Shown piece by piece: positions 19,582 to 26,893 of a stretch of 55,620 nt of DNA; the stretch's first letter is position 1; each line of letters begins with the position of its first letter. Origin of the DNA: an uncultured Anaerolineae bacterium (GTDB lineage: Bacteria > Chloroflexota > Anaerolineae > J036 > Brachytrichaceae). A program made the position numbers and the translations under genes. The stretch is from NCBI GenBank assembly GCA_938034415.1, contig CALHLE010000007.1:1-55620 (forward strand), written 5' to 3'. The notes beneath the pieces were generated by a model, which saw only the letters and a program-made list of their open reading frames with translations, did no database searches and was not told the origin of the DNA.

Positions 19582-19637
19582 ATCTATCTCTGTGCCACTA
19601 AAACACCGCCGCCGGAGAAGGGTTACGGAATCGCGCT

Positions 19638-21580: not shown

Positions 21581-23638
21581 CTACCGCGCCGGCGTTTGCA
21601 CCAGCTTGGCGACCACGTCGCGCATGATCGAGCCGTCGGGGTTGAGCACGCGCGCCTTGAACTGCCAATCGCCGTCGTTGGTATCAACCTTTAGCAAAAG
21701 CGCGTTGTAGCCCCGCTTCAGCTCGATCGGCGGCAGGTCGATGTCGCGCAGATCGTCGGGCATGTAGCGGCTTACCTTGTTGCGCCAGATCTCTTTGCCG
21801 TTCAGCCAGGCAGCCAATCCATCGTCCGAATTCATCCCCAGCAGGCCCTTGCGATCCTCGGGCGATTCGATCCACACGAAGGCATAGGCCACGGTCTTCC
21901 GCGATGGCGTGATGTAATTCAGCAGGTTGATGTTGCGCGACGGGCTGCGGATCGCCCAAGCGGTTTTGTCACCAGGGCGGGCGATGTAATTGGCCTCGCC
22001 GCCAGGCAGGAGGTCGTCGTCCAGCGTGCCGTAGGGATAGCCGCCGTTTAGCCACCATGCGCGAATGTAGCCATCGCTTGGGAAAGGATAAATGTTGACC
22101 TTGGTCGCGGCGAGATTCCCCTTGCCGTCGGTTGCGGTGAAGATGGCCTCGACGAAGCCGTCATCGCGCAAATCACCCGGCATGACGAAGCTGGCCTGTA
22201 GCCCGGTCGTGCTGGTGATCGGCGTGGCGCGCCGCCCATCGTAGCGGGTGATGCGCCACTCGGTCGCTACGGCGTTCCTCGCCTCGCCACGCAACCGCAC
22301 GGTCTGACCGGCTAGATAGGTGTCGCCGTCGAATGGGGCGAGGATGGCCGCCGAGGGCTTATTGCTCACCACGGGTCGGGTGATCGTCGCCAGCGCGCCA
22401 AGGGGGCCGCCTTCATATACGATGCGCCGCAGCCCGCCGGAGAAGATCGAGAGATACCACAGCGCGCCGTCTGGGCCAAACTGGATATCTACCGGTTCGC
22501 CCATCCGCTTGCCGAACGGAATCGTCTCCTTGAAGCGTCCGCGTTCGTCCAGAACGGTGCGGTTGATGACTTGCGTGGAGTAGTCGCCCCAGAAGAAGTT
22601 GCCCTTCATCTCCGGCGGGAAGTTGTCGCCGGTGTTGAAATCGCCTGCTACGACCGCGGCGTTATTCTCGTTGTGGTGATAGCTCAGTTCTTTGGGCGTG
22701 GTGTTCTTCACGTTGATTCCACGGCACTCCGGCATGCTTTGGAATTGCGGCACGTCCATGATGCCTTCCACGCATGGCCAACCGAAGTTGGAGCCTTTCG
22801 TCGCGATCATCAGCATCTCGTAGGTGTTCCAGCCCACATCGCCGACGTAAGGCAGCTGCGTCTCCGGGTGCAGGGCAAAACGGAAGGGGTTGCGATAGCC
22901 ATACGACCACACCCGCGAGCGCGCGCGCTTGGGGAAGCGCGGGTCATAGAACGGGTTGCCCGGCACGCCGTTGCCGGTGCGCGGGTCAATCCGCAGCACC
23001 TTGCCCTGCAGCGTGTTGATGTCAAGCGCGGTGAGCGCAAGCCTGTCGGGCATGGCTGAGAGTGCACCTTCGCCCAGCGAGACCCAGAGCAGCCCGCGCT
23101 TGTCGAACTTGAGTGTGCCGACCGAGTGATTCTGCGTGTAATTCCAGTGGTCGTCGAACAAGACAAAGGCGCTGTTTGGCCTGACCACATCACCTTCGAC
23201 GGTGTAGCGCACCAGCCGGCTGCGGCGCGGTTCGTCCACGTCTTTGGCCTGGCCCGGCGCGTCCCATGCATACATCAGGTAAATCCAGCCGTTCTCCGCA
23301 AAATTAGGGTCGAGCGCCATGCCGATCAGGCCGCGATCTACAAAGCTGTTCACTTCGTCGCGGATGTCAATCAGCGGCCGCGCGTAGAGCACGCCGTCCT
23401 TCCACACTTTGACCCGACCGGCTTTCTCGGCGATGAAGACGCGGCCGTCCGGCGCAAAAGTGAACGTCGTCGGCAGCTCCAGGTTTGAGGTGATCGGCTC
23501 CACTCTGAATCCCGGCGGCACCTCCAGGGCGCGTATCGTCTTGGCCCGAGATGTGCCTGCGATGAAAAGAGGAGAGCTGAGAGTGATGACGAGTATGAGC
23601 GCAAGCGTAAGAATGCGCCGATTGAAGCGTGACACCAT
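21581..23638 (-). CDS. Secreted PQQ-type sugar dehydrogenase (glucose/sorbosone dehydrogenase family)
   Basis: A 685-residue protein with an N-terminal export signal (hydrophobic about 8-28, possible cut after SRA). A six-bladed propeller of the soluble GSDH family follows (about 35-430): VPPGFRVEPITSNLELPTTFTFAPDGRVFIAEKAG (opening strands quoted in parts), RGLIGMALDPNF, NHSVGTLKFDKRGLLWVSLG, and FGPDGALWYLSIFSGGLRRI. After it come an Ig-like module (about 440-540, ILAPFDGDTYLAGQTV) and a C-terminal jelly-roll, PA14-like module (SDDGLAAWLNGKEIW, LKRGYNALLLKVDTNDG) that may bind glycans. Such enzymes oxidise sugars outside the membrane with PQQ. It ends the minus-strand cluster, 30 bp after the glycosyltransferase. 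Confidence 0.85.
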   Translation of the reverse strand: MVSRFNRRILTLALILVITLSSPLFIAGTSRAKTIRALEVPPGFRVEPITSNLELPTTFTFAPDGRVFIAEKAGRVKVWKDGVLYARPLIDIRDEVNSFVDRGLIGMALDPNFAENGWIYLMYAWDAPGQAKDVDEPRRSRLVRYTVEGDVVRPNSAFVLFDDHWNYTQNHSVGTLKFDKRGLLWVSLGEGALSAMPDRLALTALDINTLQGKVLRIDPRTGNGVPGNPFYDPRFPKRARSRVWSYGYRNPFRFALHPETQLPYVGDVGWNTYEMLMIATKGSNFGWPCVEGIMDVPQFQSMPECRGINVKNTTPKELSYHHNENNAAVVAGDFNTGDNFPPEMKGNFFWGDYSTQVINRTVLDERGRFKETIPFGKRMGEPVDIQFGPDGALWYLSIFSGGLRRIVYEGGPLGALATITRPVVSNKPSAAILAPFDGDTYLAGQTVRLRGEARNAVATEWRITRYDGRRATPITSTTGLQASFVMPGDLRDDGFVEAIFTATDGKGNLAATKVNIYPFPSDGYIRAWWLNGGYPYGTLDDDLLPGGEANYIARPGDKTAWAIRSPSRNINLLNYITPSRKTVAYAFVWIESPEDRKGLLGMNSDDGLAAWLNGKEIWRNKVSRYMPDDLRDIDLPPIELKRGYNALLLKVDTNDGDWQFKARVLNPDGSIMRDVVAKLVQTPAR

Positions 23639-23668
23639 TAGCCTCCCGCGTCGGTATAGCGCCGTCAG

Positions 23669-25918
23669 CTAGCGAATCTCGACGAATACAATATCGTCCG
23701 GCCACGGGCGGCCATCGGCCATGCGGGCAGAAAGGCGCTGGCCGGTTTGCCTGTCGTACCAGCCGATGCGCAACTGTTGAGCTTCTGGGGGCAGCGCAAT
23801 CGTGCGTGTATCACGCACCTGTTCGCCTGCCTCCCACAGGCCGGTGGGGTATTGCCCGTCGAACGGCTCGGCGTCTTGCTGGCCGATCTGTGCGCCGTTT
23901 TCATCCAGGATGTGCACGAAAAGCGTGTAGTCGCCGCCCGGCGGCTTCAGCGTGGTCCAATCAAAGGTGACTTGATCCGGTGCGAAGCGTACGCGGTCAA
24001 GGCGGATGGCGTCGCCGAACACAGCAATCGGGGGTTGCGCGGGCGCCGGCGCCGGAGCGATCGCCGAGGTGACTTTCACTCGGTCAATCAGGAAGATGCT
24101 TGTATTTGCGCCGTCAATCTGTGCGTCGCCGGGTGTCGGGTACAACCTGAAGAGTTTGAGTTGCACCCGGGCCGGGCCGCGCGATGCCGTGGCGTCAATT
24201 GGCAAACGGTATGCGTCGCGAAAGTATGCGCCAGGTTGCCAGCGTTGCGTGGCGAAGCGTCCTCCGAAGGGGATGGCCATTTTGCGTCCGATCACCTTGC
24301 CGTCTAGGTCGAGCGCTTCTAGCACTACGCGGTAACTCTGGTTGACCGGCGTCAGCGCGCCCCAGTACAACGTCACTTCCAGTTGCTCGCCGGGCGCCAC
24401 GCGTTTAGCGCCGACCTCGGCGTGCAATAACTCGATCATGCTGTCGAACACGGCCACGCCGGCGCTGGGCAGTCGGTAAGCCGCGACCAGCTCTGTTTTG
24501 CGCATCGTGTCGGGCGTGGCGTAGGCTGGCCGCAGCGTGGCGAACGGTGCTGCGACGGCCAGCGCGAGCAATGACCCCGCGCCGACGAGGGACGTTGCGC
24601 GCCAAGCGCGCTGCGGCGCGAGCGTCAGCCAGCCCATCGCCGTCAACAGCGCGACCGGTGCGACGCCCGGTATGATCAGGCGGCTGTTCTCCGTGCCCAC
24701 ATAGCTGCGCAACCACCACGCGAACATGGCGATGATGGCGATCTGCCAAATCATCAGCAAGGCAAAGCCGGCGCGGTTGCCCACCATCGGCAGCCGACGG
24801 GCGAAGGCAATGACGCAGCCGGTCACGGCTAGCGCCAGCGCAACGAACAGCACGACGTTCACCCAATCGTCGTAGTGCAGCTCGATGCCCAGGTTGCCCC
24901 AGTACGATGTGAACCACAGCGGCAGCGTTGCGATGACTTCGCCGATGCTCAGCGGCGGTTCGCGCAACAGCGCCTGGTTTGCTGCCTGGACTTGCGCCCA
25001 TGCCAACGGATGGCCGTAGTTGAGCAAGTTAAAGATGAACCACCAGCCGGCCACGGCGAAGAAGCCGGCCAGCAGCGCTGCGATTCGCGTCAATCGGCTT
25101 TTGCGCGGCGCGACCAGGAAGACGGCTGCCAGCGCCGGCGCAAGCAGGCCCAGCCCTTGCAACTTGCACAGCGTGGCCGTGGCAACCAGCACCCCGAGGA
25201 CGAAGAATGAGTACGCTGCGCCTTGGCCACGCGCGTTCATCGAGTTGGTCATGCGCGCCATCCACCAGCAGGTCGCCGTGGCGACCAGCGTGATGGCGAT
25301 GTCGTTGTTGACGATGCTGCTGAGGTGGATGAACTTCGGGTTGAAGGCCACTAGTGCAGCGCACAGCGCGGCTGCCTGCGCGCGTGAAGCCTCGGCGACG
25401 GCGCGGCCGGCGAAGATATTGCGCGCCATGGCATACACAAGGACGATCGTCGCCGCGCCCAACAGCGACGACAGCAAGCGCGCCGCTCGCACGGCCCACA
25501 CGGCGCCCTGATAAGGCCAGTCCTCAGCCGCAGTGTGAATGTGCTGGCCGCGCACGCCGGTGTAGCCCTCGTTGAGCGATGGCTCAAACCAGTCGCCGTT
25601 GAGCCGAACCAACTGGTCGAGGTTGCTGCGGTCGAACGGGCTGATGACCAGCGACGCCAGCGCGTAATACAACACCGGCTGCGTCACTTCGTGCGAGGGC
25701 AAGTCGCGCTTCAGATCCGGCAAGCGTCCCTCGCTGGCCAGGTAATGCGCATAGCGGAAGTGGGAGGCTTCGTCGGGCGCTTCAAAGATCGGCAGCGTCA
25801 CGTTGTAGACCATACACAGCGCCAGGAAGGCGACGAGGATGAGGGCGAGGGCCGAAGTGGGGCGATGAAAGAGCGAAATGCCTGGCGCTGATTTCTGGAT
25901 TTCGAGCGGTGAACTCAT
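23669..25918 (-). CDS. GT39/DUF2142-like membrane glycosyltransferase with C-terminal beta domains
   Basis: A protein of about 749 residues. The first 470 or so form about 11 transmembrane helices with an acidic loop after helix 1 (PIFEAPDEASHFRYAHYL) as in polyprenyl-phosphate sugar-dependent GT-C enzymes; the acidic pair would be catalytic. The C-terminal 270 residues are two related beta-sandwich repeats, each with an 'LTLYW/FDWTTL' strand, a 'DLDGKVIG/DENGAQIG' turn and a 'W.PGAYFRD/WEAGEQVRD' loop. The ATG at 25918 overlaps the stop of the upstream gene as ATGA, so I prefer it over the ATG at 25930. It probably glycosylates a lipid or surface polymer, with an unknown donor and acceptor. 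Confidence 0.82.
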   Translation of the reverse strand: MSSPLEIQKSAPGISLFHRPTSALALILVAFLALCMVYNVTLPIFEAPDEASHFRYAHYLASEGRLPDLKRDLPSHEVTQPVLYYALASLVISPFDRSNLDQLVRLNGDWFEPSLNEGYTGVRGQHIHTAAEDWPYQGAVWAVRAARLLSSLLGAATIVLVYAMARNIFAGRAVAEASRAQAAALCAALVAFNPKFIHLSSIVNNDIAITLVATATCWWMARMTNSMNARGQGAAYSFFVLGVLVATATLCKLQGLGLLAPALAAVFLVAPRKSRLTRIAALLAGFFAVAGWWFIFNLLNYGHPLAWAQVQAANQALLREPPLSIGEVIATLPLWFTSYWGNLGIELHYDDWVNVVLFVALALAVTGCVIAFARRLPMVGNRAGFALLMIWQIAIIAMFAWWLRSYVGTENSRLIIPGVAPVALLTAMGWLTLAPQRAWRATSLVGAGSLLALAVAAPFATLRPAYATPDTMRKTELVAAYRLPSAGVAVFDSMIELLHAEVGAKRVAPGEQLEVTLYWGALTPVNQSYRVVLEALDLDGKVIGRKMAIPFGGRFATQRWQPGAYFRDAYRLPIDATASRGPARVQLKLFRLYPTPGDAQIDGANTSIFLIDRVKVTSAIAPAPAPAQPPIAVFGDAIRLDRVRFAPDQVTFDWTTLKPPGGDYTLFVHILDENGAQIGQQDAEPFDGQYPTGLWEAGEQVRDTRTIALPPEAQQLRIGWYDRQTGQRLSARMADGRPWPDDIVFVEIR

Positions 25919-26838
25919 TGCGTCAGCCATCGGAACAAGTTGCGCGCATAGGCGCGATTGTCAAACTCGTCGATGTCGGTGCCGGGTCCCGGCCCATTGT
26001 GAAAGGTGTTGCGGTCGCAGGTGCCGGCCAGCTTGCCCCCGCGCGCGTTCTCGCGCACCCACGTGCAAGCGACCACATCGCCGGGTTGGATCTTAGCCTG
26101 CTCCGCCGGCTGCAAAGCGCAGCCGCTGCGCTCCAGCGGCGAACACTTCGCCAACACTTGTTGCTCGCTGAGGCGCGCCGCCTTGATGAGGAATTGGCTG
26201 CTGCCCTCGGTGGCGAACGACGCTACGCCCTGCATGATGGGATGGCTGGTCACGATGTCGGTGATCTGCGTCGCCGGCTGGAAGTTGTCGGGGAACACCT
26301 CGATCCCGAATTGCTTCAGGAAGCTGTTGTCGCTGGCCCAGTTGTCCGGGCCGTATTGAAAGTCGGCATAGACGAGGATGCGGCCACCGGCATTGTAATA
26401 CTCGGTCAACGCGGCCACTTCGCCGGCGTCCAGCAGGCGACCGTTGGAGCCGAGCACGACCAGCGTATAAGGCGACAGCAGCGCCGGCGTGATCGCGGCG
26501 TTAGCCGTGAGGATGTATTCGTCCACCGATAACTTCAGATCGCCTTCTAGCACCTCGGCGCGCAGCCGCGAGAAGCTCTCCGGCTTGCTGCCGTCGTCGC
26601 GCACGCGCGAGTGCGGGTAGCCAGTCTATGGAATGTGATCGCCGTTGATAAACAACACGCGCTTACGGCCCTCGACGGCCATCCCCGGCAGGTAGGCGCG
26701 CGGGACCAGCGTCGCCGATGGCCTGCCTTGGCTGGGCGGATCGGTCGGCGCCGCCGTCGGCTGTGTGGGCGACGTGGCTGCCCCACAGGCTGCAAGGGCG
26801 ATGCACAGCACAGCGGCGAGCCAGAGTTGAGATCGCAC
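25915..26838 (-). pseudogene. Lipoprotein with GATase/DUF4350-like domain, interrupted by in-frame TAG
   Basis: Two adjacent open frames lie in the same phase and read as one gene split by a TAG at 26626-26628. The 5' part (GTG start at 26838) codes a lipoprotein signal (LCIALAACG), a Thr/Pro-rich linker and the first strand KRVLFINGDH. After the stop, translation resumes at once as TGYPHSRVRDDG and continues for about 235 residues with YTLVVLGSNGRLLDAGEV and YYNAGGRILVYADFQYG, a class I glutamine-amidotransferase-like fold seen in DUF4350 proteins. The intact product would be about 307 residues. A TATAAT 9 nt before the GTG and the ATGA overlap with the next gene show an otherwise intact operon. 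Causes could be a recent nonsense mutation, a sequencing error or readthrough. Confidence 0.8.
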
Positions 26839-26847
26839 AGCGCTTGG

Positions 26848-26853
26848 ATTATA
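26848..26853 (-). promoter_or_regulatory. Candidate -10 element (TATAAT), leaderless type
   Basis: A perfect TATAAT on the minus strand ends 9 nt before the GTG of the interrupted lipoprotein gene. It would drive the three-gene envelope cluster. Confidence 0.5.
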
Positions 26854-26887: not shown

Positions 26888-26893
26888 TAAAAT
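26888..26893 (+). promoter_or_regulatory. Candidate -10 element (TAAAAT), leaderless type
   Basis: TAAAAT ends 6 nt before the ATG of the aldolase at 26900. It is 35 nt from the opposing TATAAT of the lipoprotein gene, so the two promoters nearly abut. Confidence 0.5.

Follow-up and report, generated by a model that had tools for sequence, protein, structure and literature searches.

The window examined in this study, a stretch of 55,620 nucleotides from an uncultured Anaerolineae bacterium, carries on its minus strand a lipoprotein gene interrupted by a single in-frame TAG. It is followed by genes for a glycosyltransferase and a dehydrogenase-type protein, and a KDPG-aldolase gene diverges from it. 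The features of the locus are listed below in window positions.

25915..26838, minus: lipoprotein gene with GTG start, predicted ThuA/GIFT-like fold and one in-frame TAG (from open reading frames, relatives and the fold of an intact relative)
26626..26628, minus: premature stop, TAG, as codon 71; 16/16 relatives with the gene have a sense codon
26629..26838, minus: upstream piece of 70 codons, holding no more than the signal peptide, the linker and the first beta-strand of the predicted fold (strand placed by a relative's model)
25915..26625, minus: downstream piece with most of the domain; omega 0.06-0.09 on this branch (from dN/dS)
26848..26853, minus: TATAAT, 9 bases 5' of the GTG, in this genome and 7 congeners; putative leaderless transcript
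26888-26893, plus: TAAAAT, 6 bases before the start of the divergent KDPG-aldolase gene
25915..25918, minus: ATGA overlap of lipoprotein stop and glycosyltransferase start; ATGA or GTGA in this genome and 7 congeners
23669..25930, minus: PMT-family glycosyltransferase, intact, TAG stop
21581..23668, minus: glucose/sorbosone dehydrogenase (GSDH) protein, third gene of the conserved set, intact, TAG stop

The lipoprotein frame comprises 307 codons on the minus strand, from the GTG at 26838 to the TGA at 25915. Positions 26838-26626 hold this GTG, 69 further codons and the TAG, and the pieces on either side share one frame. The next start-to-stop open reading frame (ORF) in that frame is 25915-26604, and the GTG at 26604-26602 is the eighth codon past the TAG. 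The original prediction of a TAG with both sides in one frame and starts 234 bases (78 codons) apart therefore agrees with the coordinates and the ORFs. The signal peptide was also said to be preserved, and a lipobox, LAAC, was recognized by eye in the upstream piece. The ATGA overlap with the glycosyltransferase gene lies at 25918-25915 when the fifth codon of the glycosyltransferase is taken as its start; the ORF listing places that start at 25930, giving a 16-base overlap.

Promoter-like boxes

The promoter-like TATAAT, likewise said to be preserved, was found at 26853-26848 (minus), and a TATAAT lies 7-10 bases 5' of the lipoprotein start in this genome and in 7/7 congeners, with start positions read off the alignment. 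PMC3160421 interprets a box some 10 bases from the start codon as a mark of leaderless genes and names Chloroflexi among the groups concerned; the passages of PMC5397173 on phyla with a leaderless signal, unlike PMC3160421, do not name them. The placement of the TATAAT fits a leaderless lipoprotein transcript, and the TATAAT and TAAAAT boxes could possibly mark leaderless transcripts of the lipoprotein and the KDPG-aldolase, respectively. In 6 of 41 frames a candidate start is preceded by such a box, a raw count made without a shuffled control.

Codon 71 and gene order in related genomes

A search of 41 genomes, including that of the window, located the lipoprotein gene in 17, that is, in 16 of the 40 others. 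Nine further loci (L018-L026) appear to duplicate genomes already counted in the 16, since the pairs show identical identity. In all 16 other genomes the two halves correspond to one uninterrupted homologous protein, so the shared frame of the two pieces is more than chance, and the claim that the pieces form one otherwise intact gene is borne out. Among the 17 genomes, a stop lies inside the gene only in the window's copy. Codon 71 in the others is GAG (12 genomes), GAC (2), GAT (1) or GCC (1), and it is GAG in every one of the seven congeners that carry the gene. It had been argued that a sense codon at this place in relatives would make the stop a base-call error or a private mutation; the relatives do have a sense codon (16/16), and the finding therefore reduces to one of these two.

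The codons flanking the TAG on both sides are private to this genome as well, and together the three form its sole run of three private codons among the 255 codons compared, 22 of which are private. This hints at a local multi-base event or an error, although the hint is weak because three congeners out of seven also have runs of three private codons elsewhere (1, 1 and 3 runs).

The genome search found no match to the lipoprotein gene in an eighth congener, G007. A contig gap, instead of loss, is a possible reason, because both contigs with its nearest glycosyltransferase matches stop within glycosyltransferase genes. Its aldolase match is just 38% identical.

The glycosyltransferase gene comes next after the lipoprotein gene in 15 of 17 loci (the window, L002-L012 and L015-L017); the two loci with no glycosyltransferase match at E 1e-15 represent one genus. 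The GSDH gene is next in all nine of the longer loci (L018-L026), which apparently come from genomes already among the 17. On contig C217 of G007, locus L103 contains a 673-residue frame that appears GSDH-like by eye and is situated between two glycosyltransferase fragments, and the conserved gene set may thus be duplicated in that genome.

Constraint on the interrupted gene

Past the TAG, omega on the branch leading to the window was 0.062, 0.075, 0.072 and 0.087 in four triplets, compared with 0.128, 0.135, 0.106 and 0.117 on the sister branches of the same triplets. Before the TAG, the corresponding values on the window's branch were 0.256, 0.286, 0.113 and 0.112, from the few sites of the signal peptide and linker. 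Of the polarised private changes past the TAG, 3 were nonsynonymous and 13 were synonymous; the count omits codons for which no polarisation was possible. Given a background omega of 0.06-0.12, the neutral share of the branch is at most 12-18%. The lipoprotein gene was constrained until recently, or still is, and the branch dN/dS supports the earlier statement that the pieces have no other visible decay. Because the part after the TAG still looks constrained, the change is either very recent or an error.

The downstream glycosyltransferase gene had an omega of approximately 0.25 on this branch, versus 0.13-0.16 on the sister branches, and may perhaps have undergone a slight relaxation here. 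The aldolase gene had an omega of 0.08 on this branch versus 0.05 on the sister branch.

Sequence quality of the window

The window was compared with stretches of seven congeners, and 157 of 871 alignments were retained (best-supported frame, identity at least 50%) and merged into 39 gene stretches. Coverage was uneven, with one relative alone over approximately the first 5 kb and three over the right half. A long first-pass list of stops, which could have pointed to general sequence decay, lay mostly in presumed spurious antisense frames, and filtering left the stop at 26628. Among the 39 stretches no second stop lies deep inside an alignment and shows against all relatives present there, as this one does (7/7), frameshifts being outside this count, and for this reason the sequence of the window is not generally poor. 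Other stops were no more than 27 columns from the end of an alignment or were seen against one relative only (17314, 17323; 38952, 38979, 39045; 54020, 54110, 54113). Against two relatives, a further TAG at 19600 (minus) stands at column 36 of 137. Its frame has a match to an acyl-carrier domain (PP-binding); the TAG precedes the start of an 84-residue ORF and so lies upstream of the acyl-carrier gene, not within it. The genome itself is a draft of 83 contigs.

Among the matches listed, two glycosyltransferase matches in the genus carry one in-frame stop each, at C77:23519-25042 of G007 (TAG) and C26:69233-69661 of G003 (TGA), and isolated stops may therefore occur elsewhere in the genus.

Decoding of the TAG codon

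A search of the genome for a suppressor tRNA, as the original prediction proposed, was negative: among 47 tRNA genes with 44 anticodons, in a genome that is 98.49% complete, no CUA anticodon was found, and UCA and UUA were absent too. Release factor 1 (RF1) is present, with a score of 517.7 bits against a cut-off of 423.25. TAG terminates 12 of the 41 supported frames in the window, a few of which may not be genes; the 12 include the lipoprotein frame itself, the coupled glycosyltransferase and the GSDH gene that directly follows the latter. Across the genome, 77 ABC-domain matches, examined over the matched stretch and not the whole gene, contained no stop. The tRNA inventory, RF1, the ordinary TAG stops and the ABC-domain matches together led us to reject a suppressed or recoded TAG. 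A structured read-through signal was rejected as well, since the 126 bases past the TAG fold no better than shuffled sequences (z 0.42); the matching stretch of a relative gave a z of -0.13 against shuffles. Native tRNA-Gln genes (CUG and UUG) are present, and tRNAs of this kind could misread TAG at a low level.

Predicted fold of the intact lipoprotein

An alignment of nine proteins was used to model the fold of the intact relative L018 (mean pLDDT 71.3, pTM 0.74). VIA-align was run over the 1000 chains ranked highest by Foldseek. With this model, its top match was a chain of the eukaryotic oligosaccharyltransferase (OST), 8b6l_N (Z 18.9, rmsd 2.9, 214 residues aligned), tied with IFT52, 5fmr_A (Z 18.6, rmsd 2.8, 202 aligned); a ThuA-like protein, 1t0b_A, was further down (Z 15.5). 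Foldseek itself ranked the ThuA-like chain 4jqs_A first (E 2.2e-9) and the IFT52 chain 5fms_B second (E 6.9e-9). The OST chains matched by the model are ones that we take to be OST48/Wbp1. A sequence profile also matched IFT52 (E 1e-5). Pfam scores of the lipoprotein were below the curated cut-offs among the matches listed, in which the best score for IFT52_GIFT (PF23355) was 22.6 bits, under the cut-off of 27.2; PF23355 was nevertheless found at E <= 0.01 in eight of nine members of the lipoprotein family. The intact lipoprotein had no match in NCBIfam. PMC7226087, citing Beatson and Ponting 2004, states that the GIFT domain takes its name from GldG and IFT52, is found in Wbp1 and has been proposed to bind sugar.

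On these grounds, the fold predicted for the intact lipoprotein is ThuA/GIFT-like and close to IFT52 and the OST chains; the scores fit a GIFT fold as well as another GATase1-like fold. The lipoprotein resembles the GIFT proteins (the N-domain of IFT52, OST48/Wbp1 and GldG) and the ThuA-like proteins, by a profile match to IFT52 and by the VIA-align comparison. It differs in being bacterial and secreted, in its Pfam scores below cut-off and in having a ThuA-like protein as its top Foldseek match.

Discussion

Pseudogenes formed by recent nonsense mutations are known from bacterial draft genomes, and the locus described here is like them in having one private in-frame stop in a gene that is otherwise intact and constrained. 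We think it probable that codon 71 underwent a private and very recent nonsense change in the strain or population that was sequenced. The stop is most likely an ordinary one, and nothing tested separates this TAG from known recent nonsense changes. We infer that the change is present in cells, as opposed to being an assembly error. The glutamate codon of the congeners would then have become TAG, and RF1 would terminate translation there, leaving a 70-residue stub of signal peptide, linker and first strand. The lipoprotein would be lost in cells with the TAG, and the coupled glycosyltransferase would perhaps be translated less, as ribosomes would no longer reach the ATGA overlap.

The main competitor of a recent nonsense change is a base-call or assembly error, the organism itself having an intact gene with a sense codon here, and we regard this as a real though lesser prospect. 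The stop is private to this one assembly, the assembly is a draft in 83 pieces, and both codons flanking the TAG are private too; the constraint is not visibly relaxed, and lasting constraint fits an error as well as it fits a very recent mutation. An error is set against sequence that is generally good: the 39 stretches of the window show no further mid-gene stop that is seen against every relative, frameshifts being outside that count, and no interruption in the 77 ABC-domain matches across the genome. The original prediction had offered three possibilities, a recent stop, an error or read-through. The private stop and the constraint fit either of the first two; the third is unsupported. Functional read-through, with the TAG decoded at some rate and full lipoprotein made, would agree with an intact and constrained frame past the stop and could draw on low-level misreading by the native tRNA-Gln species (CUG, UUG). 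It is nonetheless very improbable, given the lack of a CUA anticodon among the 47 tRNA genes, the presence of RF1, the 11 other supported window frames that end in TAG (that of the coupled glycosyltransferase included), the post-TAG RNA structure that does not exceed shuffles (z 0.42) and the fact that none of the 16 relatives shares the stop. Least credible is a split gene in which the downstream piece restarts at the GTG at 26604-26602 and functions as a protein in its own right. That GTG is conveniently placed eight codons past the TAG and the downstream piece is constrained, but the recency of the change accounts for the constraint, no relative is split (0/16), and the restarted piece would be without the signal peptide, the lipid anchor and, according to the relative's model, the first core strand.

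The locus is like systems of amber suppression or stop-codon recoding in its in-frame TAG and the constrained frame beyond it. It differs from them in that no CUA tRNA was found, RF1 is present and TAG serves as an ordinary stop. A narrow literature search for read-through of stops in bacteria assembled from metagenomes yielded no reports, which says little. There is a very slim chance that a real amber codon is held in the population with low-level read-through, as a leaky dose control in a glycosylation operon; if so, one strain would make a little of a secreted GIFT-fold lipoprotein, and its glycosyltransferase partner would be tuned through the RTGA overlap.

When a draft genome shows a lone stop in a constrained gene, this should not on its own be taken for recoding; here the tRNA inventory, RF1, the ordinary TAG stops, the relatives and the branch constraint argue against recoding. 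The useful by-product of the analysis is a conserved ThuA/GIFT-like lipoprotein beside a PMT-type glycosyltransferase, which is a lead and not a result: the lipoprotein is possibly a bacterial counterpart of a Wbp1-type subunit of a glycosylation complex.
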